Below the pieces are notes generated by a model that had not been told where the DNA came from, searched no databases, and saw only the letters and a list, made by a program, of their open reading frames with translations. Positions 672 through 63,196 of a DNA stretch of 64,000 bases are shown in pieces. The position numbers and the translations under genes were made by a program. Location: the NCBI GenBank assembly GCA_026770025.1, contig JAMXDE010000053.1, forward strand, positions 124,001 through 188,000. The letters run 5' to 3'. Each line of letters opens with the position of its first letter. Position 1 is the first letter of the stretch. Source of the DNA: Craspedostauros australis. Lineage: Eukaryota > Bacillariophyta > Bacillariophyceae > Mastogloiales > Achnanthaceae.

Positions 672-4086
<3,415 letters not shown>

Positions 4087-12462: not shown

Positions 12463-15402
12463 GATAATCACTTTGGTCGAGAATTATTTGCTTCGCGTAG
12501 CGTGACGTATCGTCGAGTGCAGTGCAATGCTGTGCTGTGTAGTGCTGTGTAGTGTTGTGGAGCAAGGTCTTTGGCTCAGAAGAGAGATGGCGCGGCGGTG
12601 TTGTTGATCTTTCATCATGGTCGGCAGCCATCACCCCAAGCAACGTCGTGAGGTTGTTGGTGATGCCTTTGATGTTCTTGCGTTGATTTTTTTGATGGCT
12701 CGACCCAAACCATCGCAACGTCAGCTATCGTACTACCGGACGGACGCATTATATGATCGTTGATTCATTCATGGAAGCAAACGTGCACGTTGTACTCCGT
12801 TTTGTTCGTTCATCGATGATACGACTCGAACAAGTCCAGAACGGACATATCACGACTCATTTCGGGGATTGTCCATGTCTGTCAACTCCGACTTGTCACT
12901 GTTGTCACCATTCCCACATCCAACGGTCCGAAAAGGAGTCGACCCCAAACTCGTGACACATCGATGAGGCAACCGCTCCTGGATTGGTTGTGGTTTGTCG
13001 GCGGTCAGACGGTGGAAAATGGGTTTCTCGTTGCGCGGTGAAGTGGAAACGTGACGTCACGCCGACGTTCGCATCTTCACGCAGACAACGTGACGCGCAA
13101 ACACCCCCTCTGTGGAATCGCGCAATCTGCCGATGACTGGCAACTTGAAGTGAGGAACGGAACCGTTATCCTCATCGTTGTGCGAATGCGGTTTCAATTG
13201 ATTTCCACGTGACAATTCGATTTGTCACATTCACGAATGCTGGGGATGTGCTCAAAGTCATGGATGAAGACGCTTCGCGATGACCGCCTGTGATGTGGTT
13301 GTGGCAGCACCTGTGGGAGGAAAGATACGAAGTTTGTTTTCTCACTGAACGAAGAAAAATGATGCCAAGGGCAGCAGATGCCGAGGCGAAGACAAAACAG
13401 ATCGGTTTGGGGGAGGGGGAGAGAGACTGGGGGGATGGAGATGGAGGGAGGAGCTTTCCCGCGACCTGGATGTTTGCGTTCGCACAGACGAAGACAGGTG
13501 TGCGAGTGGAAACACCAGCACTGTGGCGACAGCCATAGGCGACCATGGGGCACAGAGTCGGCGAAAGCCTCCCTCTTTCTCTCGCTTGTGACCGCATCAT
13601 GCGTTTCTCACCATCGCGATAGCAGCGACAACAACAACAGCCGCCACAGCTGGTTGGTGCGCATGGCATGGCATGACACGAACATGTTTGTTTGGATGGT
13701 GACGATGTCTCATTCGCCGAGGTGGAGAGGGCGGGACATGCATGCGATTGCCTTCATCTGTTCCCCTTCATTTTGGTTGGATGAAAGGAATGAATTCCTC
13801 CAGCCAGACGGGCGGTGACCAACTTCGATGCAGAGCGAGGGGAGGAGGAGATAATTGGGCCTCATCCATCTTGCCCCGTCTCTTGTGTCTTTGTTGTGTG
13901 TGTGATTGGCCTCCGAGCCTGATGTCCCTTGGTGTCATTCGACCTCAGCAACTTGTAGTAGGGAGTACTATTGCTCGTTGGAGTGTGGGGCAGGAACGCG
14001 AAGTATCAGAGGAAGATGAACATGAGAGTCACAGCGTCGTCCACCAAATGGCAGCAACGACAGTCCCGCCATGGGTGGCTGCGACCATTCCGGCAGCGAG
14101 AACAGAAAAACTGGAACGCTGCAACCTTTCGTGGACATTTGCATCGGCAGATCGTGGATCGCGAGGTTGAGGATGAAATCAAGACCAGGGACACTTGGTT
14201 TTGCTCTGGGTGATGAGTGAGGCCTGATGAAAAACAGAGGGGCGATAAATAGTCTTCCACCGCTGTGGATTCCGCTCGGCCAACTGGCAATTGCAGCAGA
14301 TGGCGGCATCTTCATCGGATGGCCCCCTGTCTGAAAATGAGAACAGTTGCCAAACGCAGAGTGCCAGCATTTGTGACGGTGCCAGCGACTACTGGACAAA
14401 CACGGATGATGAACGGCTGTTGGTTTGGTTGCGTGGAGGGGCCGTGTGCGTACTTGCGGGGGTGCATTTGTCCCATGATGCGCCCTTCATGGGCCTTGTG
14501 GTTTGCGTGTATGGCCATGATGCGGCTGTTTGAGTATTGGTGTTGAGTGTCGATGATGAACGACGACGATGATGACATCGTGTGCGGAGGGGTGTGTGGT
14601 CGCCGACTCTGCGATGACAGTGCACTCTCGCGCGTTTTAGCATAACCGCCGTGCAAGTCACATTCACATCTGCATCTGTGAAGAAGAGAAGCCTTTTCCT
14701 ATTCGACCTAATTCTCATTTTATCAATACCCGCTTGCATCCTCTGTCAGCTGCCTGCTGGCACCGATCAGCGACATCGTCCAGCGTGGTGAGTGTTGGAA
14801 GGCCTCTGTGTGTGACTCTCTCTTCTTCCACTTCTCCACAGCGCAAACACCGTTTCGCTTTGTGGTGTTGGCATCACCCACATGCGGTTCTGCGTCAAAA
14901 CGAGGGGGTCATTTTTCTTCCCACACAAGATTTTTGAATCCCACCCCAAAAGAGACACACGGAGATCCAATCACTGCACTGTTCCCACGTACTCTCAACC
15001 GTGCATGTCATCGTGTGCGCGTACAACACAAAGCCAAAAACTGATTCCTTCTCATTCTTCCACACTCTCCAACATCACACAAATTTGGGAACTCCACCAC
15101 GCAAAAAGCAAGGGACGCGTTGCAAACAACACGAAACAGGCACAAAACGAACACGCGCGAAAGTGCTCTTCACTCAACCACCACAACCATTGATAGCCGA
15201 AGCCAAACCACAAAACGCAAGTGCGCTCATCCAAGCCCACACAAGGCCAGACACTTCATCACAAATCCAACAACAGCAACAGCAACAACAACAATAGCAA
15301 GAGAGACATTGACAGACACAGACACTTGCTCCTCAACACTCATAAAGACGCAAAGACACCAACGCAAAGCATCCAACAAGAAGCGAACAAACAAACGAGA
15401 AA
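12463..15402. other. long intergenic region, no gene supported
   Basis: This 2.9 kb lies between the divergent Cpn20-like gene and the Gln-rich protein gene. Several open frames of 60-165 codons overlap on both strands, but none has a recognisable domain or consistent coding look. The last 400 bases before 15403 are rich in CAA/ACA and depleted of T, like a long 5' leader of the following gene. Confidence 0.5.
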
Positions 15403-22650: not shown

Positions 22651-24193
22651 TGTGTGTGATGCGCCTTTCCTGCTTGATCTCTGGCTTGGCGCGATGTTTG
22701 TGATTGCCACTGCTTCGATGAATCTTCCTGGTTGGTGTATGGGTATTCGAGCACTTGTATTTGTACTCGTGCTCGTGCTTGTGCGAGTGATGGGTGATGT
22801 GAGGTTTGGCGCGCTCGATTTTATGGCTGTTGGGTGCTTCTTCTTGTTGGTTGAATTGTGAGCTCCCGACTCTGCGGATACTCGCACAGTTGGTCGTACT
22901 GTACTTGTACTGCCTTGGCCACGCTGGTCGGTGAAGCTGGCGGCGGGTGGCGTCCTGGGAGTGATGGAGACAACAACGGAGATGATGTGATGGCAAGGAG
23001 CGTTTGACTTTAGCTCACTTCAGCTCGATCTGGTTTGGTTTGGAATCGGTCTTGTTTGTTATCGATACCGCCGTTACGTTCCTGCACGAGTACTTCACAA
23101 CACCGAAACAATTCCCCGGTGACGGTCTTGCGGTTCCGTTTCTCTGAAAGAGCACTGAAAGGTATGTAGTCGTGCTAACGCTGTACGCTGCTCTGCAATG
23201 AATGTGACGCAGCACGAGATTCCGCTGGGACCAAGACGTACTATTGGCACTTTGTTGTTGCAATACTCAACACCCTTTGCGCAAATGAAAGATGGTGCGA
23301 CGATAAGTTGTGGACCCGTAGAGACACGCGAGATTGAGTTCCATTTACTGTTTGGTTTTTGTGAGCCTTAAACGGAACCTCGCTTTGGGCACCATTGTCG
23401 GTTTTCGCCAACGCGGCCAACCACGGTTTTGGGCGTCCCACGCTGCTACGTGGTGTTGTGCTCTGTTTGCTCTTGCAGTCGCAACGCGGCAACCCAACGG
23501 CTAATCTGTCCGCAACGGGATGGAGATTTCGGACACAAAGGGGCTTAATGCACAATCGACATTTTGCGAATGACCAACATTTATAAGATCGAGTGACTCC
23601 GGGGGACTCGGACAGAACCCGCTTCGGTCCCGCCACGATACCACACGTATCAGACTAATAGTCGAGTCAGTCCAAGACTTCTCACGATTCAGACGCGAGG
23701 AATTCACATGAGATTTGCCTCCGATGAGGAAGTACTCGTACAAGGAAAAGCAGTGCGCAATGTTGCGTCACACACAACTAACACATCATCCACATTGCAT
23801 GGCAAGATCCCTCTGGATTCGTGGGCGGCCATTCCTCTCTCTTGTGGACGAACAAATGATCAATTCGGCGTTGACCGAGTCATCTCCGATTGCCAGAAAC
23901 CCTTTCGCTTGTCCAGCTCGTACTCTACCAACTCCTTCTGCTTCTCCTACTTCTCTCTCTCTCTCTCTCTCTGCCTTCTTGATTCTCGTGCATCGCAGAT
24001 TCAATAATACCTCCACCCTTCCTCCGCGAGCACGAGTACTAGACACTGTTCTCCAACCACGACTTCTCTCCGACCATTCTCCGACCAAGTCCATGCATCT
24101 CATACCAATACCATCCTATTCTCATTCTGCTCCTTTCTTTGTTCTACACGATCGATAATGCCTTGTTCTACAATATTCTAGTATACTTCAGAT
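22651..24193. other. intergenic, no gene supported
   Basis: 1.5 kb between the protease start and the end of the first DUF4291 copy. Short frames on both strands show no recognisable domain. The right end from 23955 belongs to the 1.1 kb duplicated block. Confidence 0.5.
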
Positions 24194-24892
24194 TTATTCA
24201 CCATCCTCTCGGCTCCATTGGCCCACGGTGTCCATCCCGATCTTTCGCAAGTCCTCCAACTCCATGTGCGGCACATACTCACGTTCCTGCGGCAAGTCCA
24301 CACGAACGGACTTCATGGCCTCCTCGGCGTCTTTGCCATTCACCGCTTTTTGGTGCGCTGCGTGCACCTGATGTGCCAACTCGGTCACGTCCTCGATCTT
24401 CCGAATGCTGTGTACGTACAGGTGAGATACATCGCGCGACAACCCGATTTGAATGGCTCGTGTCATTGGCATCTTGCGTGGGTCTTGCCCATCGCCGTGC
24501 TGCAGATCGCGTTCCGGATCCCACTGGATGCGACCCATGCTGCCACCGCCGCCATGTCCGCAAACACACCACGATAGCAACTCCGCGACGTCTTCGTGGC
24601 TCACTTGGATGCGGAGGATGCGTTCTTGGTTGGCTTTCGTGGCGTACCCCGATCGGTACAGGACCCATCCGAAGGATGGTTTGATCCATGTCATGCGCGT
24701 GGCGTGAAAGTCAGGACAGTCCGTGAAGGTCTGGTTCGCGACAGCGTACTCGGCGATGGAAGGGCGGAAGGCCTGGTAGAAGTACACGCCGTCGGCATCC
24801 CACATGGCGCGGAAGATGCGGGTGGGGCGGTCCTTGTGTTGGGCACTTGGTTTGGCGGTGTTGCTGCTGGGCATGTTTGTTGTTCTTGTCAT
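24194..24892 (-). CDS. DUF4291 family protein, copy A
   Basis: 232 residues from the ATG at 24892 (MTRTTNMPSS) to TAA at 24194. The segments RIFRAMWDADGVYFYQAF, DFHATRMTWIKPSFGWVLYR, GYATKANQERILRIQVSHED, RIQWDPERDL and RAIQIGLSRD are the hallmarks of DUF4291, a family found mainly in bacteria and scattered microbial eukaryotes; its biochemical function is unknown to me. No signal peptide or membrane segment is visible, so it is probably cytosolic. The frame is open upstream to 25066, but that stretch translates a minisatellite and is treated as leader. Differences from copy B include Asp/Glu at ADG/AEG, Ser/Gly at VSHED/VGHED and Lys/Glu at MKS/MES. Copy B lies 3.9 kb away on the same strand. 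Confidence 0.88.
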   Translation of the reverse strand: MTRTTNMPSSNTAKPSAQHKDRPTRIFRAMWDADGVYFYQAFRPSIAEYAVANQTFTDCPDFHATRMTWIKPSFGWVLYRSGYATKANQERILRIQVSHEDVAELLSWCVCGHGGGGSMGRIQWDPERDLQHGDGQDPRKMPMTRAIQIGLSRDVSHLYVHSIRKIEDVTELAHQVHAAHQKAVNGKDAEEAMKSVRVDLPQEREYVPHMELEDLRKIGMDTVGQWSREDGE

Positions 24893-24965
24893 CTTGTTGG
24901 TGTTGATTTTGTTTGTTTTGTTCGATTTTGTGGGGAGATGTTTCTTGTTTTGTGATCTGATTCTC

Positions 24966-25029
24966 CAAACGTGTATGTATGTACCAAACGTGTATATGTG
25001 TACCAAACGTGTATGTATACCAAACGTGG
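24966..25029. repeat. minisatellite, ACCAAACGTGTATGTAT-type units
   Basis: Four imperfect 14-19 bp units lie in the leader of the DUF4291 gene copy A; the same array sits at about 28850-28914 in copy B with different unit spacing. Confidence 0.85.
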
Positions 25030-25059
25030 ATTGAGTCCACGATCGCAGCCGAGAAAGAA

Positions 25060-25909
25060 GTCCCAAGGTCGTTCCTCGGCTTCGAGCTGAAGGACAGTTC
25101 CAGACGGTGATGCTGTGTGATCGTATTGTTGGTAAATCAGATAGTTACAATTGAATTGCATGCTGGTTGTTTCATCTCTCTCTCTCTCTCTTGTTGTTGC
25201 CATCTGCTGCTGTTGTGGTGCTGTTGTCGCTGCTTTGTTCCAGCTGTCGCGTCGTCTCGGTTGGTCCTGGTTGCCTGATCTGTCCGTCGCTGGGGCTCGA
25301 CAAAACCACAGGTGCTCGGGAAATAGGCCCTTTCGCCAACACAGCCAACGCCGCGGAGAATGTGTGGTGAACATGTCTGTGAGATCTGCGCAGGGGAGTT
25401 CACTTGGAGATCTTCACACGAAACTTTCAGTTCCTGTTGGACCAGCGAAGTCCCACCAACCTCTCCGTTGGCCGCTCAACCCTGGCAGTTCGGCGCCCAC
25501 TGGCCGCAATTGGAGGTGACAAAGTCGGTGATTTCGTCAAAGAGGCGCGCGTTTGTGCCAGGGGCAACTGCTTCCCAACCCCCGTTTCTCTTGTGGCGAG
25601 CAGCAAGGAAACAAACAGAGAAGTTTGGCGATGCCTCTGCACACCGATACACCGATACACAGGCAAACAAGGCAAACAAGGCAACAAACACACGAGGCGG
25701 CAAACACACAAGCCAGCCACTGTGGAGCAGAGTTGTCGTATGCACGAGTTTTGATACACACGGATAACGACAACTGGATCCATCTCTTCCTTGCACCCTG
25801 CATCCCCTGAATGCTCCTGTTCTCATAATTCGGAAAAACAAAGCAACACAGACACAGACACGCATTCGCACCAATTCGCACCAATTCGCACCAACAACCA
25901 CCAGCAACC
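25060..25909. other. intergenic / leader of the silaffin-like gene
   Basis: No gene is recognised. Just before the ATG at 25910 there is a short tandem repeat of CAATTCGCAC (about 25863-25893) in an A/C-rich leader. Confidence 0.55.
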
Positions 25910-27568
25910 ATGCCAATCATCAGGAAAGACATCCTCGCTCTCGTCTTGGCTCAGAGCCTCGTCTCCAATGGCGTCGACGCGGTGCTGAACACCAACAAGA
26001 AGGCAGCCGCAGATGACAAAATTGACGTCAATGTCGACGCCAGTATCAACGCCGCCAAGGCGAAGCTCCTGGAGTTGACAGCCAACCACAAGAGGGAAGA
26101 TGCCAACATGCCATACTCGCAATCGCACTCTCACCTGCACTCTCACTTGCACTCTCACCTGCACTCTCATGATGGAAAGGTCGAGACCACAACAAACAAG
26201 GTCGCAGACAGCATCCGCCGTCCACGTCCTTCCATCACCACCAACATCAAGGACACGTACGCCGATCTCGGTCGCCTTCAAGCCCAAGATGCGTCCAACG
26301 ATGAGGATGAGCATGCATCGCACGAGCACGGCACTCTGTCTGTTGGAATGGAGACAGACGAGGCTCACGACGCCAACAGTCGTCAGCTCAAGTCCTCGAA
26401 ATCCGCCAAATCGGCGAAGTCCTCCAAGTCCTCGAAATCGGCCAAGTCCTCCAAGGCATTCAAATCATGCTTCACTGGAACAGCCGAAGCTGTCACTGCC
26501 AAGTGCGCGGTCGAGGATGCCAGCTGTTGCGAAGCTTCGGTCAACGCCACATCCCCCGCATGCTCTTGGAGCAGTGAGAGCTCTGTAACCGTCTGCCCCA
26601 ACTCCTGCAATGGCGAGCAAGCTTGCTTCTTCAATCCCAACGTCACGACGACCATCCAGATTGCCTCCTACTCTTGCAACAGTGACAGAGCCTGCCAGTA
26701 CACCGCCGTGTCTGTGCCCTCCCGTGCTTGCAATGGCGAGGATGCTTGCGGCAAGAATTCTGGCCCGGTCGCCGATGACGCTTGCAATGGTGATCGTGCA
26801 TGCCTGGCCAACACGGGGGCTATCGGCAAGGGCTCTTGCTTTGGAGACCGGGCTTGCTTTGAAAACAGTGGCACTGTCGCCGATGACGCTTGCAACGGCA
26901 ATGGTGCATGCAGGTACAACGAGGGGAGCATCAGCAAGGGTTCTTGCTTTGGGGGCGATGCTTGCGAGAAGAATTCTGGCCCGGTCGCCGATGACGCTTG
27001 CAACGGTGATATTGCATGCTCGTCCAACGAGGGAGCCATCAGCAAGGGTTCTTGCCTCGGATACTTTGCTTGCTTCCAGAACTATGGCAATGTTGCCGAT
27101 GACGCTTGCAGTGGTGAATATACATGCATGTACAACTACGGAAGTGTCAGCGACGGCTCCTGCGTCGGCACAAGGTCCTGTATGTACAATTCTGCCGATG
27201 TGGGCGAAGGATCGTGCTTCGGCCTTTATGCGTGCTTCGGAAACGCTGGAAACATCACGTCAAACGCATGCATTGGCCAAAGCTCTTGTAGCCTGAATCG
27301 TGGCATCATCGGTGAAGGCTCCTGTCATCTTGAGAACGCTTGCAACAGAAACTCCAAAGACATCGCCAACTACTCTTGCATTGGAGAACAAGCCTGCTAC
27401 TCCAACGACGGCAAGATCGGAGCGGATTCGTGCCAAATGTACCAAGCGTGCTACCGCAACACCGGCGATGTTGGCAATGGAGCTTGCCTTGGTGCCATGG
27501 CATGCTATTCCAACGTTGATCCGGTGGCTGACGGGGCCTGCATCGGCAATTCTTCCTGTTCCGCGTAA
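25910..27568 (+). CDS. secreted silaffin-like protein with 18-residue Cys-rich repeats
   Basis: 552 residues, one exon. The N-terminus (MPIIRKDILALVLAQSLVSNG) is a signal peptide. Then: an acidic/Asn region; a histidine-rich patch about 67-88 (SHSHLHSHLHSHLHSH); an acidic segment; nine lysines at exact three-residue spacing from K161 to K185 (KSSKSAKSAKSSKSSK and onward); and from about 186 to the end a Cys-rich region. That region contains 16 units of exactly 18 residues with the pattern C-x-G-x-x-A-C-x-x-N-x-G-x-V/I-x-x-x-A/S. Lysine clusters of KxxK type are known in diatom silaffins and promote silica targeting. The repeat region probably folds as a disulfide-stabilised solenoid. The function is likely extracellular or in the silica deposition vesicle; this is inference. 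The gene is bracketed by the DUF4291 direct repeats. Confidence 0.9.
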   Translation: MPIIRKDILALVLAQSLVSNGVDAVLNTNKKAAADDKIDVNVDASINAAKAKLLELTANHKREDANMPYSQSHSHLHSHLHSHLHSHDGKVETTTNKVADSIRRPRPSITTNIKDTYADLGRLQAQDASNDEDEHASHEHGTLSVGMETDEAHDANSRQLKSSKSAKSAKSSKSSKSAKSSKAFKSCFTGTAEAVTAKCAVEDASCCEASVNATSPACSWSSESSVTVCPNSCNGEQACFFNPNVTTTIQIASYSCNSDRACQYTAVSVPSRACNGEDACGKNSGPVADDACNGDRACLANTGAIGKGSCFGDRACFENSGTVADDACNGNGACRYNEGSISKGSCFGGDACEKNSGPVADDACNGDIACSSNEGAISKGSCLGYFACFQNYGNVADDACSGEYTCMYNYGSVSDGSCVGTRSCMYNSADVGEGSCFGLYACFGNAGNITSNACIGQSSCSLNRGIIGEGSCHLENACNRNSKDIANYSCIGEQACYSNDGKIGADSCQMYQACYRNTGDVGNGACLGAMACYSNVDPVADGACIGNSSCSA

Positions 27569-27839
27569 ATGAGAAGCCATCGCACAGGGTGGATCGTAGG
27601 GTAATCTCCCTTTCGCCACAAGAAGTGATAGCAATTGTATTTCTCATCAATTCCGATGTTCGTTTGTGGTAGAGAGAGAGAGAGAGCATGGTCTCTCTGC
27701 GCATTGCTGTACGACTACTTGTGTCGAGGATGTCGTCGCCCCCATGATCGTAGAACAGTTCTTCGTCTCGGGGCTTTGCTCTGATCGGACGGAAAGCCCC
27801 AGTTGCGGTATGACGACTGAGTCGAGCATCGTAGTACTT
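27569..27839. other. 3' flank of the silaffin-like gene
   Basis: No gene seen; a GA microsatellite lies at about 27672-27687. Confidence 0.5.
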
Positions 27840-28944
27840 CTCTCTCTCTCTCTCTCTGCCTTCTTGATTCTCGTGCATCGCAGATTCAATAATACCTCCA
27901 CCCTTCCTCCGCGAGCACGAGTACTAGACACTGTTCTCCAACCACGACTTCTCTCCGACCATTCTCCGACCAAGTCCATGCATCTCATACCAATACCATC
28001 CTATTCTCATTCTGCTCCTTTCTTTGTTCTACACGATCGATAATGCCTTGTTCTACAATATTCTAGTATACTTCAGATTTATTCACCATCCTCTCGGCTC
28101 CATTGGCCCACGGTGTCCATCCCGATCTTTCGCAAGTCCTCCAACTCCATGTGCGGCACATACTCACGTTCCTGCGGCAAGTCCACGCGAGCGGACTCCA
28201 TGGCCTCCTCGGCGTCTTTGCCATTCACTGCTTTTTGGTGCGCCGCGTGCACCTGATGTGCCAACTCGGTCACATCCTCGATCTTCCGAATGCTGCGTAC
28301 GTACAGGTGAGATACATCGCGCGACAACCCGATTTGAATGGCTCGTGTCATCGGCATCTTGCGTGGGTCTTGCCCATCGCCGTGCTGCAGATCGCGTTCC
28401 GGATCCCACTGGATGCGACCCTTGCTTCCCCCGCCGCCGTGTCCGCAAACGCACCACGATAGCAACTCCGCAACGTCTTCGTGGCCCACTTGGATGCGCA
28501 GGATGCGTTCCTGGTTGGCTTTCGTGGCGTACCCCGATCGGTACAGGACCCATCCGAAGGATGGTTTGATCCATGTCATGCGCGTGGCGTGGAAGTCGGG
28601 ACAGTCCGTGAAGGTCTGGTGCGCGACAGTGTACTCGGCGATGGAAGGGTGGAAGGCCTGGTAGAAGTACACGCCTTCGGCATCCCACATGGCGCGGAAG
28701 ATGCGGGTGGGGCGGTCCTTGTGTTGGGCACTTGGTTTGGCGGTGTTGCTGCTGGGCATGTTTGCTGTTCTTGTCATCTTGTTGGTGTTGATTTTGTTTG
28801 TTTTGTTCGATTTTGTGGGGAGATGTTTCTTGTTTTGGATCTGATTTTCCAAACGTGTATTTATGTACCAAACGTGTATGTATGTACCAAACGTGTATGT
28901 GTACCAAACGTGGATTGAGTCCACGGTCGCAGTCGAGAAAGAAG
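27840..28944. repeat. 1.1 kb direct repeat, copy B
   Basis: Second copy of the block at 23955-25059, same orientation, containing the second DUF4291 gene. Both edges are sharp: a CT run on the left and GAGAAAGAAG on the right, after which the flanks are unrelated. Confidence 0.95.
28079..28777 (-). CDS. DUF4291 family protein, copy B
   Basis: 232 residues from the ATG at 28777 to TAA at 28079, the same length as copy A and about 95 percent or more identical by eye. All family motifs are kept (RIFRAMWDAEGVYFYQAF, MTWIKPSFGWVLYR, RIQWDPERDL, RAIQIGLSRD). The reading frame is intact, so both copies may be functional. Substitutions are spread over the protein rather than clustered, and some are non-conservative (Arg/His in QAFR/QAFH, Met/Lys in GSM/GSK). 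The neighbouring minisatellite differs slightly in unit spacing between the copies. Confidence 0.88.
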   Translation of the reverse strand: MTRTANMPSSNTAKPSAQHKDRPTRIFRAMWDAEGVYFYQAFHPSIAEYTVAHQTFTDCPDFHATRMTWIKPSFGWVLYRSGYATKANQERILRIQVGHEDVAELLSWCVCGHGGGGSKGRIQWDPERDLQHGDGQDPRKMPMTRAIQIGLSRDVSHLYVRSIRKIEDVTELAHQVHAAHQKAVNGKDAEEAMESARVDLPQEREYVPHMELEDLRKIGMDTVGQWSREDGE

Positions 28945-48100: not shown

Positions 48101-49154
48101 GTCGTCGTGAGAATGGTTGTTGATGTGTTGATTGTTCATGTGTTGATTGTTCATGTGTTGATTGTTCATGTGTTGATTGTTCATGTGTTGATTGTTCATG
48201 TGTTGATTGTTCATGTGTTGATTGTTCATGTGTTGATTGTTCATGTGTTGATGTGTGAGAGTGATGAGAAGGAGACGCAGACGGCGGTGTGCAATTGACA
48301 ACATAGATCGTACAAGAAATGCGAGTAAGAACGCGTGCAACCATGACTCACCCGTGCAGAAAGATGGTTTTAGCATCGTCGGACTGCTCCAACCGCCAGG
48401 CCTCCTGCCTGAAGGCCCAGGTATGCGATGGAAGGATCATGTTTGGCTGGAAGAATGAGTCGAGCATGACCTGCATGGAGTTGGTGAGATCCTTGGCGGA
48501 CGGCGTGGCCAGCAGGTACTCCGTGCGGTCCCTCATGGTGTTGGCCTCGAGGTGGGTCTGCAGCGATCCCTGGCGGATCTGATTCCACGCGTCCTTGACG
48601 GGGAACTTGGTGGATCCCAGCTGGATGGCCTCCGAGACGACGTGCGCCGTTCCGTGGGAGTTGGTGGGCAGCGTGCGGAAGGACATGCCGAAGACGCCAT
48701 CCTGCGATGCGCCGTCCTTGGGCTGCTCCAGCGTGACGAGCTGCAGGCCGGTGTTCTTGTGCTTGTAGACCTTGGCCTCGGCGTGGAAGTGGTCCAGCGA
48801 GGCCTGCTTGACCCTCTCGAAGGCGCGGAAGGGGTCACCGGAGTGGCGATGGCGGCTGCTGCTGCTGCCGTCGCTGTTCTTGGCATGGTGCACGATGAGG
48901 CCCAGCACGACGGCGCACAGCACAGCGAGGATGAGCACGCGACGCAGCTTGGGCCCGTTGAGGCCCGTGCCCTTGGACAGCGAGATGCCGGCCGCCGCCT
49001 CGTAGTAGTCCGCGTTGGCCGTGTGGGCGCCCCTGCTCAGGTTCGTGGTCGAGCGGCGTCCCTTGCGCCTTCCGCGGCTTCCCGATCGAATCACGCCATC
49101 GCCATGTCCCAACGTGCGCCGTCCTCGGCTGCTGCGGCTGCTGGATCGCGGCAT
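45113..49154 (-). CDS. membrane-anchored M16C/PreP-like protein, zinc site lost, three exons
   Basis: Exons 49154-48352, 48030-47316 and 47005-45113 join in frame (donors GTGAGT and GTGCGT, acceptors ACAG and CACAG) to 1136 residues. A basic N-terminus precedes one membrane segment (about 73-88, VLILAVLCAVVLGLIV), so it is a type II membrane protein. The rest follows presequence protease / falcilysin (M16C) along its length: GSTKFPVKDAW, FWRKYYHPNNAQAMCYG, ASMNKIEYQLLHKHAPGLPRG and more. However, the zinc motif HxxEH reads H171-VV-S174-E175, losing the catalytic Glu and second His, and the third ligand (NEMKG in PreP) reads DQMHP. It should therefore be inactive as a protease. It may have a scaffolding or peptide-binding role. 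Stop TAA. Confidence 0.85.
48123..48252. repeat. 15-bp minisatellite (GATTGTTCATGTGTT)8
   Basis: Eight perfect 15-bp units from 48130, with a partial unit at each side, lie inside intron 1 (48031-48351) of the M16C-like gene. In the other strand they read as repeated Asn-Asn-Gln-His-Met, but splice sites exclude this from the coding sequence. Confidence 0.95.
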
Positions 49155-56234: not shown

Positions 56235-57692
56235 CTAATTACTCGACGACCAGAGTACTCCAAGGCAATGCAGGATCGCATCAATCATCGATGTGCCTTT
56301 CTTTTCCACACCGCAAGCAGAAGCATCATCAACTCGGACGAGCCGATCCTCTCTCTTGTCATCCCACGCCTGTTTCAACGTCTCACTGCCCTGCAGCAGA
56401 ATGTTGAAAGTCTCGCTCGTAGGATCCATTGTACCCATTAGACCCTCTTCAAACATTGGACCACGACGTTTGCTTGTTCTCATCAGCATCTCTCCAAACA
56501 GGGCCAGTGGCCGCGACCATGTCGGAAGGGAACTCAGCACTGCTGTCACCTTGTTGCGATGATTTCGCCGCAAGTTGCATTCAACAAGCGCATTGTACGA
56601 ATGGACATGTTCGTCAGGCGGGTCTCGATAAATGTGGAGATGGGTGAGTTGGGTAGTCTGCTCCAAGGCTTGCTGAAGTGCTTCCATTTGTGCCGAGAAG
56701 ATCTCGGGCGCAACCTCAAACATGCTGGGATCCTCAAAGGGATTGTATCTGAGAGATGACAAGCCCTTGTTTCCCAGGAGCGAGATGAAAGAGTCGAACC
56801 GTGTATCCTGCTGTTGTTGTGATGGCCCAATCCAAAAATTGAAAACCTTGAGCTTGTTCAGGTGTGATGCATCTGAAAGAAGTTTGATGATCTGGTCGAT
56901 TTCTTGTTGTGAGTAGATTCGTTCGGCGCTGAAGACCAGACCGAAATCGATGTAGAGCTTGTTGATGCGCTTGTTTGACTGAAATAGCTTTGCCAAGCTA
57001 TCGCAAGTGACTCGGATGTAGAAAAAGGATACTTCGGTGACGCTACAATTGTTTGGAGACAGCCATCTGCACAAATCAGCGCCCCCATTGGCGAGCTTAC
57101 AATTATTAAACTCAACGTATTTGGAGTTTCGGGAGATGTTGAACATGAGCTTGTCACAATCAACAAGATCACATGAATACAAACGCACACGATGTGTCAC
57201 AAGAGGGATATCATGGAGCTGCTTCATCTTCACGAAGCCCCGAGTCAAGTAGATGCCTTCGTCGAATGGAAATTTGGGCGGGTGTTTGGCAGCCAATCGA
57301 AGTACGAAGCAAATCGCTTGCTTGTCTTCTTCTCCGAATTGGTCATTGCTGCCGAAGTTCAGATTCAGGGATCGAATACGTATCCACCCGCAGCCTCTGT
57401 AACACGCACCGCTCAGTAGAACACGAGGTGATAAAGCAACGTGTTTGTGCCGCCGCTCCATCGATTCCAAGTCAGCAAAGGTGAATCCTGCTTCGATGGC
57501 CATGTCCCAGTATTCCGTCCGCTTGGGTGTGACACTGTAGCAGTCGATCTGCTGTCTTGGATGACTCTGTATATTGAACACGGTCTTCGGTGACAGCTCT
57601 TTTCGATGGAGTTGTTTCCAGAAAGTCTTGAAGTCTGGATCATGATCGCTGTTGGTATTGGTGTTGGCGACAGTATCCATGTTGTGGTTCAT
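56235..57692 (-). CDS. leucine-rich-repeat-like protein, copy 1
   Basis: 485 residues from the ATG at 57692 to TAG at 56235. The frame stays open upstream to 57854 but without an ATG, and that part is Gln/Asn-rich, so it is treated as leader. Residues about 120-420 contain irregular leucine-rich units, for example HRVRLYSCDLVDCDKLMFNI, SKYVEFNNCKLANGG, INKLYIDFGLVF, LNKLKVFNFWIG and TQLTHLHIYRDP, consistent with a degenerate LRR solenoid. No signal peptide, membrane segment or enzymatic motif. LRR proteins usually bind other proteins; the partner is unknown. The copy at 60726-62183 differs at only about five residues (Cys/Arg, Val/Gly, Arg/Gln, Glu/Gly, Asp/Asn). Confidence 0.72.
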   Translation of the reverse strand: MNHNMDTVANTNTNSDHDPDFKTFWKQLHRKELSPKTVFNIQSHPRQQIDCYSVTPKRTEYWDMAIEAGFTFADLESMERRHKHVALSPRVLLSGACYRGCGWIRIRSLNLNFGSNDQFGEEDKQAICFVLRLAAKHPPKFPFDEGIYLTRGFVKMKQLHDIPLVTHRVRLYSCDLVDCDKLMFNISRNSKYVEFNNCKLANGGADLCRWLSPNNCSVTEVSFFYIRVTCDSLAKLFQSNKRINKLYIDFGLVFSAERIYSQQEIDQIIKLLSDASHLNKLKVFNFWIGPSQQQQDTRFDSFISLLGNKGLSSLRYNPFEDPSMFEVAPEIFSAQMEALQQALEQTTQLTHLHIYRDPPDEHVHSYNALVECNLRRNHRNKVTAVLSSLPTWSRPLALFGEMLMRTSKRRGPMFEEGLMGTMDPTSETFNILLQGSETLKQAWDDKREDRLVRVDDASACGVEKKGTSMIDAILHCLGVLWSSSN

Positions 57693-58705
57693 CCTTTTCT
57701 TGTTGTCGCTGTCGTTTCCGATTGTTGTTGATTGTTGTTGATTGTTACTGATGATGATTGTTGCTGTTGCTGCTGATTGTTTCTGTTGGTGGTCGTCCCT
57801 GTTGGCGAGTGGAGCAGGTAGAGCTGATAGAGCAGGCAGAGTGTGTGGTCCCAAATCAGTTGCGCTTGGATGGCGATTGTGAGCTCATCTGCTCGAGCTT
57901 GATGTCCTCCATTTCATGATCCTGTGCATTGATCACGAAGCAACGTGTCGTCAGTCAACGTGCCTGCACGGACTTGCGCAGTTCCACCACGGTGTATGGT
58001 GTGGTGTGGTTCGGTATGGTATAGTATGGCATGGTACGACCGTGCACAGCCACATCATGATCCGAAGCTGGCTTGCTCGCTCGCTCGCACGATACAACCT
58101 TCGATGATGCCCAACTTGGCCACGCTGTGCAGTTGTGCCTCTTCATGTGATACCATAGTACATCCCTCTGTGATGGTCTTGGGGGGAGTCAACCACGATA
58201 CCACTCCGATCGATACACTTCTTCGGGAGTTGCATGTTATCGAACGACTCCAATGGGCAGATCCGCGATGCGACGAACCCACCACGATGGCTTCTTTGCT
58301 GGGCATCAGAGACTTTTCTCGCGTTTTGTCAAGAACATGACGATGGTGATGATGAGCATGACACCACTCGTGTTTCAATCGACAACAAACGTATCCAGGA
58401 CTCATCTCGCCTCATCCAATCGTCGCGAACGACAAATAGCACGGGAAGCCATTCGTTGTGTGGCGGTGGCGGTGACGATGACGACAGTGATGGTGGTGGC
58501 GCAACAGAAATCGCCGCTGAGAATACTGATGCAGATCGCCACAACCACAACCACAACCACAACCGCGGCGCTCAACGACGATCACCGTCGGCACCAAGCA
58601 TCTATCCACAGAGTACGTATACCAATACTCTCTCTCGTTTCTCTCTGCTTCTTGAGAGAGACTTCGAACAATGCCGGCTGGTTGACTTGGTTCCTCACTC
58701 ATTGA
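57693..58705. other. spacer between LRR-like gene and pseudogene, unit 1
   Basis: Repeated almost unchanged in unit 2. It contains a TATGG/TGTGG-rich patch near 57990-58040 and a His/Asn (CACAAC) repeat near 58545-58565. Plus-strand frames here are low complexity and may be remnants of the monooxygenase N-terminal region; no gene is called. Confidence 0.5.
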
Positions 58706-60725: not shown

Positions 60726-62183
60726 CTAATTACTCGACGACCAGAGTACTCCAAGGCAATGCAGGATCGCATCAATCATCGATGTGCCTTTCTTTTCCAC
60801 ACCGCAAGCAGAAGCATCATCAACTCGGACGAGCCGATCCTCTCTCTTGTCATTCCACGCTTGTTTCAACGTCTCACTGCCCTGCAGCAGAATGTTGAAA
60901 GTCTCGCTCGTAGGATCCATTGTACCCATTAGACCCTCTTCAAACATTGGACCACGACGTTTGCTTGTTCTCATCAGCATCTCTCCAAACAGGGCCAGTG
61001 GCCGCGACCATGTCGGAAGGGAACTCAGCACTGCTGTCACCTTGTTGCGATGATTTCGCCGCAAGTTGCATTCAACAAGCGCATTGTACGAATGGACATG
61101 TTCGTCAGGCGGGTCTCGATAAATGTGGAGATGGGTGAGTTGGGTAGTCTGCTCCAAGGCTTGCTGAAGTGCTTCCATTTGTGCCGAGAAGATCTCGGGC
61201 GCAACCTCAAACATGCTGGGATCCTCAAAGGGATTGTATCTGAGAGATGACAAGCCCTTGTTTCCCAGGAGCGAGATGAAAGAGTCGAACCGTGTATCCT
61301 GCTGTTGTTGTGATGGCCCAATCCAAAAATTGAAAACCTTGAGCTTGTTCAGGTGTGATGCATCTGAAAGAAGTTTGATGATCTGGTCGATTTCTTGTTG
61401 TGAGTAGATTCGTCCGGCGCTGAAGACCAGACCGAAATCGATGTAGAGCTTGTTGATGCGCTTGTTTGACTGAAATAGCTTTGCCAAGCTATCGCAAGTG
61501 ACTCGGATGTAGAAAAAGGATACTTCGGTGACGCTACAATTGTTTGGAGACAGCCATCTGCACAAATCAGCGCCCCCATTGGCGAGCTTACAATTATTAA
61601 ACTCAACGTATTTGGAGTTTTGGGAGATGTTGAACATGAGCTTGTCGCAATCACCAAGATCACATGAATACAAACGCACACGATGTGTCACAAGAGGGAT
61701 ATCATGGAGCTGCTTCATCTTCACGAAGCCCCGAGTCAAGTAGATGCCTTCGTCGAATGGAAATTTGGGCGGGTGTTTGGCAGCCAATCGAAGTACGAAG
61801 CGAATGGCTTGCTTGTCTTCTTCTCCGAATTGGTCATTGCTGCCGAAGTTCAGATTCAGGGATCGAATACGTATCCACCCGCAGCCTCTGTAACACGCAC
61901 CGCTCAGTAGAACACGAGGTGATAAAGCAACGTGTTTGTGCCGCCGCTCCATCGATTCCAAGTCAGCAAAGGTGAATCCTGCTTCGATGGCCATGTCCCA
62001 GTATTCCGTCCGCTTGGGTGTGACACTGTAGCAGTCGATCTGCTGTCTTGGATGACTCTGTATATTGAACACGGTCTTCGGTGACAGCTCTTTTCGATGG
62101 AGTTGTTTCCAGAAAGTCTTGAAGTCTGGATCATGATCGCTGTTGGTATTGGTGTTGGCGACAGTATCCATGTTGTGGTTCAT
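60726..62183 (-). CDS. leucine-rich-repeat-like protein, copy 2
   Basis: 485 residues from the ATG at 62183 to TAG at 60726, the same length as copy 1 and about 99 percent identical. The reading frame is intact, which with the near identity suggests either a very recent duplication or ongoing gene conversion. The substitutions seen are AIRF for AICF, DLGD for DLVD, ISQN for ISRN, SAGR for SAER and AWND for AWDD. Otherwise the description of copy 1 applies: irregular leucine-rich units in the middle, an Asn/Asp-rich start, no targeting signal, unknown partner. Confidence 0.72.
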   Translation of the reverse strand: MNHNMDTVANTNTNSDHDPDFKTFWKQLHRKELSPKTVFNIQSHPRQQIDCYSVTPKRTEYWDMAIEAGFTFADLESMERRHKHVALSPRVLLSGACYRGCGWIRIRSLNLNFGSNDQFGEEDKQAIRFVLRLAAKHPPKFPFDEGIYLTRGFVKMKQLHDIPLVTHRVRLYSCDLGDCDKLMFNISQNSKYVEFNNCKLANGGADLCRWLSPNNCSVTEVSFFYIRVTCDSLAKLFQSNKRINKLYIDFGLVFSAGRIYSQQEIDQIIKLLSDASHLNKLKVFNFWIGPSQQQQDTRFDSFISLLGNKGLSSLRYNPFEDPSMFEVAPEIFSAQMEALQQALEQTTQLTHLHIYRDPPDEHVHSYNALVECNLRRNHRNKVTAVLSSLPTWSRPLALFGEMLMRTSKRRGPMFEEGLMGTMDPTSETFNILLQGSETLKQAWNDKREDRLVRVDDASACGVEKKGTSMIDAILHCLGVLWSSSN

Positions 62184-63196
62184 CCTTTTCTTGTTGTCGC
62201 TGTCGTTTCCGATTGTTGTTGATTGTTGTTGATTGTTACTGATGATGATTGTTGCTGTTGCTGCTGATTGTTTCTGTTGGTGGTCGTCCCTGTTGGCGAG
62301 TGGAGCAGGTAGAGCTGATAGAGCAGGCAGAGTGTGTGGTCCCAAATCAGTTGCGCTTGGATGGCGATTGTGAGCTCATCTGCTCGAGCTTGATGTCCTC
62401 CATTTCATGATCCTGTGCATTGATCACGAAGCAACGTGTCGTCAGTCAACGTGCCTGCACGGACTTGCGCAGTTCCACCACGGTGTATGGTGTGGTGTGG
62501 TTCGGTATGGTATAGTATGGCATGGTACGACCGTGCACAGCCACATCATGATCCGAAGCTGGCTTGCTCGCTCGCTCGCACGATACAACCTTCGATGATG
62601 CCCAACTTGGCCACGCTGTGCAGTTGTGCCTCTTCATGTGATACCATAGTACATCCCTCTGTGATGGTCTTGGGGGGAGTCAACCACGATACCACTCCGA
62701 TCGATACACTTCTTCGGGAGTTGCATGTTATCGAACGACTCCAATGGGCAGATCCGCGATGCGACGAACCCACCACGATGGCTTCTTTGCTGGGCATCAG
62801 AGACTTTTCTCGCGTTTTGTCAAGAACATGACGATGGTGATGATGAGCATGACACCACTCGTGTTTCAATCGACAACAAACGTATCCAGGACTCATCTCG
62901 CCTCACCCAATCGTCGCGAACGACAAATAGCACGGGAAGCCATTCGTTGTGTGGCGGTGGCGGCGACGATGACGACAGTGATGGTCGGTGGCGCAACAGA
63001 AATCGCCGCTGAGAATACTGATGCAGATCGCCACAACCACAACCACAACCACAACCACAACGCTCAACGATGATCACCGTCGGCACCAAGCATCTATCCA
63101 CAGAGTACGTATACCAATACTCTCTCTCGTTTCTCTCTGCTTCTTGAGAGAGACTTCGAACAATGCCGGCTGGTTGACTTGGTTCCTCACTCATTG
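62184..63196. other. spacer between LRR-like gene and pseudogene, unit 2
   Basis: Same content as 57693-58705 with a few base changes; no gene is called. Confidence 0.5.

Follow-up and report, generated by a model that had tools for sequence, protein, structure and literature searches.

A predicted secreted diatom protein joining a regularly spaced lysine cluster to DUF7640 cysteine repeats

The gene, its locus and its host genome

The window—the whole 64,000-nucleotide stretch of Craspedostauros australis DNA analysed here (contig JAMXDE010000053.1, positions 124,001 to 188,000 of the forward strand)—carries at 25910-27568 (+) one unbroken open reading frame, from an ATG at 25910 to a stop codon at 27566-27568, which requires no intron and encodes a protein of 552 amino acids. 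The unit of homology shared with paralogous loci is 25347-27829, comprising the gene together with about 0.56 kb upstream and about 0.26 kb downstream. The features of the locus are as follows.

25347..25909, plus strand: upstream sequence (promoter/5'UTR) common to paralogues, in pieces 82-95% identical at seven paralogous loci
25910..25981, plus strand: signal peptide predicted by inspection, residues 1-24, MPIIRKDILALVLAQSLVSNGVDA
25982..26389, plus strand: putative propeptide, residues 25-160, net charge -7, ending in R-Q-L, its cleavage presumed
26126..26170, plus strand: His-rich patch HSHLHSHLHSHLHSH, residues 73-87, within the propeptide
26381..26389, plus strand: RXL motif R-Q-L, residues 158-160, directly before K161
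26390..26467, plus strand: lysine cluster KSSKSAKSAKSSKSSKSAKSSKAFKS, residues 161-186, net charge +9
26468..26674, plus strand: non-repetitive cysteine domain, residues 187-255, CFTGTAEAV...CC...VTVCPNSCNG
26675..27565, plus strand: cysteine repeats, DUF7640, a probable beta-solenoid, residues 256-552, 17 repeats
27569..27829, plus strand: downstream sequence common to paralogues, 86-87% identical at four paralogous loci

Downstream, paralogue homology breaks off 10 bases short of a 1.1-kb direct repeat, the two copies of which (23954-25060 and 27839-28944, 97% identical) flank the DUF7640 gene; a search of the genome found no further copies beyond these two. Each holds a minus-strand ORF of about 280-290 amino acids, that of the first copy matching DUF4291 in Pfam, and it seems that a copy of the gene unit was inserted into, or between, the members of a tandem duplication of a gene unrelated to it. 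Elsewhere in the window lie a nearly perfect TGT trinucleotide array of 1.1 kb and about 369 copies (2298-3404), about nine near-perfect copies (99% matches) of the 15-base unit TTGTTCATGTGTTGA (48117-48252) and, on the minus strand, two 539-aa ORFs (56235-57854 and 60726-62345), 4,491 bases apart, that have the same tandem-repeat pattern and are probably a tandem gene duplication; a Pfam search with the first of the pair gave no match.

Against five PDB chains, which we take to be diatom enzymes, the rubisco large subunit of the genome reaches 1049-1072 bits, and at most 926 against the other 55 among the matches listed. The silicon-transporter family PF03842 has 88 matches in the genome, examples being L029-L036—28 of them near-full-length and stop-free, four with stops, with fragments besides—where published copy numbers in diatoms and Parmales reach above 30 (PMC13403384). 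Silicon transporters and a diatom-type rubisco are sound grounds for regarding the host as a silicifying diatom.

A large family built on cysteine repeats

Searches of the 74.8-Mb assembly (90 contigs) gave at least 74 matches to the window protein (79 of 196 candidates scored) and at least 163 to the Pfam DUF7640 model (PF24646; 150 of 358 scored); the protein is one of a large, little-studied family and not a one-off. DUF7640 is a domain of unknown function whose 121-position model spans the cysteine repeats, and a literature search by its name found no paper. From 33 stretches around the protein matches we obtained 34 ORFs past a repeat filter, of which 28 have an intact start and a common N-terminal plan and make up, with the window protein, the set of 29 intact members used below. 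Left out were the minus-strand frame of L038 (a chance frame), L044 (another N-terminus and no lysine cluster), two 102-aa pieces (L042 and L043), a 243-aa piece of L043 without an N-terminus, and L010 (C48:204314-206197), which has ten lysines in register and an upstream in-frame stop, and is a pseudogene, holds an intron or reflects an assembly error; L045-L049 yielded no ORF past the filter, L049 being only an N-terminal piece. Two closely similar DUF7640 genes with KSSKSSKSSKSSK clusters, L026 and L042, lie in opposite orientation on contig C2, the first near 2.95 Mb and the second near 2.57 Mb, which points to a segmental duplication in inverted form. In collections not meant for diatoms, relatives were absent from viral contigs (searched with the single protein and with the family alignment) and from phages, and in a genome-contig collection the family alignment gave one pattern in 36 stretches, none of which was confirmed; the DUF7640 model matched none of 14 control genomes, which were not meant as diatoms either.

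Of the N-terminal features named in a sequence-only reading of this DNA, the His-rich patch is present and the signal peptide is predicted. Judged by inspection (A at -1, V at -3) and by hydropathy, the protein's start resembles a signal peptide, and a similar n-region and hydrophobic core occur in all 29 intact members, a set picked by its start motif. In none of the 29 did hydropathy reveal a transmembrane-like 19-mer past residue 30, and from its start we infer that the window protein is secreted. The His-rich patch stands in the propeptide, and histidines ahead of the cysteine domain number 10-13 in the window protein's clade of eight genes and 2-11 in the other 21 members. RXL motifs occur in the precursors of silaffins, frustulins, cingulins and silacidins, where they are taken as a likely protease site (PMC4557024), and the motif is likewise described as a probable processing signal in PMC9650480. 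The propeptide ends in RxL followed by lysine in 27 of the 29 members, in RKM-K in one and in HQLK in another. Because R-Q-L stands downstream of the His patch, with RxL or RxM at that place in 28/29, the patch is probably lost with the propeptide; we considered it as a piece of a silica-directed tail and rejected this on account of its position ahead of the RXL motif.

All 42 cysteines of the protein fall at residue 187 or later, as do its five N-glycosylation sequons (two in the cysteine domain, three in the repeats). From Cys256 onwards, 34 of these cysteines form 17 C-x5-C pairs with an exact period of 18 residues, and 479 family repeats in exact register, in which the cysteines were fixed by the search, give the consensus C-x-G-x-x-A-C-x-x-N-x-G-x-[VI]-x-x-x-[SA]. 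About 365 residues of cysteine repeats had been claimed; the 18-residue C-x5-C repeats are there over about 297 residues, but the first 69 residues of the claimed stretch are a separate, non-repeating domain, whose cysteine pattern is invariant in an alignment of ten members (A1). Pfam matches the protein to one family, DUF7640, in four stretches (E 1.3e-55; 187.3 bits against a curated cut-off of 28.1), and the lysine tail falls outside the best of these (residues 255-366). With net charges of -5 in the first cysteine domain and -16 in the repeats, the cysteine part totals -21; joined to a +9 tail, it would make the mature protein zwitterionic.

Two single-sequence structure models place regular strands at 18-residue intervals, with low confidence (mean pLDDT 53.6 and 60.3); a disulfide-braced beta-solenoid with one 18-residue turn per repeat is a plausible fold for the cysteine part. 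Foldseek searches with the two models gave no match at E<=0.001, and phmmer against PDB sequences gave none at E<=1. Median dN/dS was compared between two parts of the protein. Among the eight genes of the window protein's clade (28 pairs) it is 0.55 (range 0.34-1.45) ahead of the lysine cluster and 0.26 (0.09-0.48) within the first cysteine domain, and among the seven genes of a second clade (21 pairs) the corresponding values are 0.59 (0.31-0.92) and 0.49 (0.09-1.13). The first cysteine domain is thus under more constraint than the part before the cluster, clearly so in the window protein's clade only.

The lysine cluster within and beyond the subfamily

Lysines stand at residues 161, 164, 167, 170, 173, 176, 179, 182 and 185, separated in order by SS SA SA SS SS SA SS AF, so that the nine lysines at perfect three-residue spacing with mostly Ser-Ser or Ser-Ala spacers, noted earlier from the letters, are borne out. 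Shuffling never reaches nine: spaced runs attain at most five lysines in 20,000 shuffles of the whole protein and at most seven in 100,000 shuffles of residues 156-192 alone. Five of the lysines lie within 13 residues, which makes this a pentalysine cluster by the published definition of five non-consecutive lysines in 12-14 residues (PMC9650480, PMC5501833). The lysine codons are mixed (five AAG, four AAA), and therefore the run is not one repeated DNA word; a simple DNA repeat was rejected as a full account of the run on the grounds of these mixed codons, the diverse spacers of the paralogues and a register that is mostly kept. Differences in cluster length between close copies do suggest slippage. 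Across the linkers of the 29 members, the first spacer of 164 K-x-x-K units is serine in 125 and threonine in eight (133/164 together), and the second is S, A, E, F, T, P, N, V, L or others; the family motif is best given as K-[S/T]-x.

Conservation of the cluster among orthologues had been put forward as a check on its importance, and among the intact paralogues it is partial: five lysines within 14 residues precede the cysteine part in 21 of the 29 members, the window protein included, but are lacking in eight (L011, L015, L020, L022, L023, one of the two L024 genes and both L041 genes). The eight include the two nearest relatives by tree path—L011, whose linker has six lysines with asparagine at one register position, and L015, whose linker has four. 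In a tree computed with the cluster columns left out, for which the program warned of long branches meeting, presence of the pentalysine cluster requires at least four changes; these changes agree with a cluster that would be old in the family and was shortened or lengthened several times. The repeat part varies as well, from 11 to 37 C-x5-C pairs among the intact members, as does the number of lysines.

All 19 matches to a short lysine-cluster query in the genome, a query that includes flanking family residues, are DUF7640 genes, as are all 11 matches to a second such query; both missed the clusters of L047 and L051, and the queries are therefore not exhaustive. Among 518 ORFs of at least 150 aa in 306 kb of sequence, a single ORF outside DUF7640 has five lysines in 14 residues with no lysine pair, namely a basic stretch at position 15345 (+) of the window without a Pfam match. 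Since this non-random sample consists of the window and the surroundings of DUF7640, silicon-transporter and rubisco genes (L001-L008 excluded), the specificity of the cluster to DUF7640 genes is suggestive only.

More distant DUF7640 genes vary further in their N-terminal parts. Behind the signal-peptide-like start of L047 come RKL-A followed by KSSKSPKASKAFKK, then Pro-Thr repeats (PF04886) and DUF7640. In L051, DUF7640 is joined to a K-S-P-rich stretch and to Pro-Thr-type repeats recognised by eye, and in L052 and L045 to K-S-rich stretches. Pro-Thr repeats also occur in silaffin-like proteins of Thalassiosira pseudonana (PMC5501833). In L044, which has cysteine repeats, the lysine run never exceeds two, and the parts read of L046 (DUF7640 by Pfam) and L048 (repeats by eye) show long Ser/Pro/Thr repeats without a lysine cluster. 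For L053, a short piece, the N-terminal start lies outside the sequence examined. The Ser/Pro/Thr tracts of L046 and L048, which are several hundred residues long and precede DUF7640-type cysteine repeats, are reminiscent of mucin-like surface proteins. With lysine-rich stretches in four of these distant genes and none in others, the joining of lysines to cysteine repeats extends more widely than the window protein's subfamily and is not universal.

Proposed role, alternatives and known systems

We lean towards the reading that the window protein is a secreted, RXL-processed structural protein associated with biosilica, in which a disulfide-braced beta-solenoid is brought to silica by a K-S-x tail. 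Its predicted signal peptide would lead it into the ER, and a protease of the secretory path or of the silica deposition vesicle would, by the RXL rule, cut after R158-Q-L160, removing the acidic, histidine-containing propeptide and leaving a mature N-terminus that would read exactly (K-S-x)7-K-A-F-K. By analogy with silaffins, lysines of the tail may then be methylated or modified with polyamines and its serines phosphorylated. In T. pseudonana, pentalysine clusters 12-14 residues long take part in the targeting of eGFP fusions (PMC9650480), and by likeness to these Thalassiosira clusters the tail could direct the protein to the silica deposition vesicle, bind silica and hold the protein in it, while the acidic cysteine part, if folded as a disulfide-braced solenoid, would make a stiff rod within the organic matrix or on its surface.

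Two other readings of the same features seem to us unlikely, to a similar degree. The protein could be a secreted adhesive or structural protein of mucilage, its disulfide rods forming extracellular matrix and its lysine tail binding acidic polysaccharide or surfaces and not silica—a role that would suit a repetitive, Cys- and Gly-rich protein with a signal-peptide-like start and five sequons, from a large family of variable repeat number, and one search for diatom adhesives looked among lysine-rich proteins. Yet AC3362, a lysine-rich protein from that very search, proved to be a cell-wall component (PMC4220933), and an RXL motif followed directly by K-S-x repeats recalls the precursors of silica proteins (PMC4557024). 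Alternatively, the lysine cluster could be a feature of processing or transport (serving, say, as a substrate for a kinase or methyltransferase, or linking the propeptide to the cysteine part) with no role in silica, the cysteine repeats being the functional part, for instance in recognising or binding a partner. The variable length and partial loss of the cluster point this way, as do the two cluster queries, which matched DUF7640 genes only and so make the cluster look like a family trait; moreover, mutation or deletion of two lysine-rich regions of T. pseudonana CinW2 left the location of that protein unchanged, so that lysine clusters need not be required (PMC9650480). Against this stand the recurrence of lysine-rich stretches in divergent DUF7640 genes with other N-termini and the fact that, although the second spacer drifts, most units hold to the three-residue register and to Ser/Thr in the first spacer.

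An ice-binding or other ligand-binding Cys-braced beta-helix, like the beetle antifreeze protein, would likewise pair its cysteines in a short, regular repeat and plausibly form a beta-solenoid, but it is very improbable here: the repeats carry no regular Thr ladder (threonine exceeds 18% at none of the repeat positions listed), the period is 18 residues where that of the beetle protein is 12, and the Foldseek and PDB sequence searches gave no significant match.

Extending the biosilica-associated reading from the window protein to its family is a tentative step, which we put forward as possible and no further: DUF7640 may be a large, unrecognised class of biosilica scaffolds, in which an RXL-exposed K-S-x tail nails to silica a disulfide-braced solenoid rod whose length can be adjusted, and the cassette, duplicated to dispersed sites, may supply many rods of varied length and charge for the patterning of the wall. 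If true, DUF7640 would become a candidate silica-scaffold family with a definite layout of cut site, tail and rod; the differences among paralogues in lysine number and rod length would be a natural experiment on lysine-cluster function, and a disulfide rod that carries a silica tail would lend itself readily to use as a display scaffold. What is new is that a Cys-repeat family shows a targeting layout of the silaffin-like kind: as far as the excerpted descriptions of diatom wall proteins go, none of those compared joins a known silica-targeting motif to such a Cys-repeat domain, and judged by titles and the openings of abstracts, the literature offers nothing fitting on a lysine cluster joined to cysteine repeats in a diatom protein.

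How silaffin-like the protein is can be gauged with the composition rule of Scheffel et al., which asks for at least 18% serine and at least 10% lysine in 100 residues (as quoted in PMC3478156). The protein barely passes (18% S and 10% K, for example in residues 81-180), in company with nine other members, while 19/29 fail; shuffled versions of it pass in 47 of 2,000 cases. Calling the protein silaffin-like, as the sequence-only reading did, therefore finds agreement in the signal-like start, the pentalysine cluster, the RXL motif and the Ser/Lys rule, but not in the eight members that lack the cluster or in a His patch that lies upstream of the RXL motif. Like the silaffins proper (T. pseudonana Sil1 and Sil3; Cylindrotheca fusiformis Sil1p), the protein combines a predicted secretory signal, RXL, a Ser/Lys-rich segment and clustered lysines that in silaffins are often three residues apart with serine spacers. 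Unlike them, it has one short lysine tail fused to a large acidic Cys-repeat domain, and it is known from sequence alone; the excerpted descriptions of silaffins that we compared mention no Cys repeats. Further marks of the silaffin-like class would be liberation from the wall solely when silica is dissolved, polyamine-bearing lysines and phosphoserines.

Among other wall-associated proteins, cingulins alternate Trp/Tyr-rich regions with KXXK-containing ones, whereas the window protein has a single lysine cluster. Pleuralins (HEPs) are likewise Cys-containing repeat proteins and are bound tightly to the wall, although their PSCD repeats of about 90 residues and their Pro-rich domain (PMC4557024) differ from the 18-residue C-x5-C repeats seen here. 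SiMat7-like proteins of T. pseudonana and Phaeodactylum tricornutum share RXL and conserved cysteines with it, are secreted and silica-linked as the window protein would be, and differ in having eight conserved cysteines and a C-terminal TM domain (PMC5501833), both absent from the window protein. The closest precedent is Tp5357 of T. pseudonana, which was found in the valve when GFP-tagged (PMC9650480): compared by its description only, it has 593 amino acids against 552, a lysine-rich stretch at 148-171 against 161-186 in a similar K-S-x style, two RXL motifs, a signal peptide and no TM domain.
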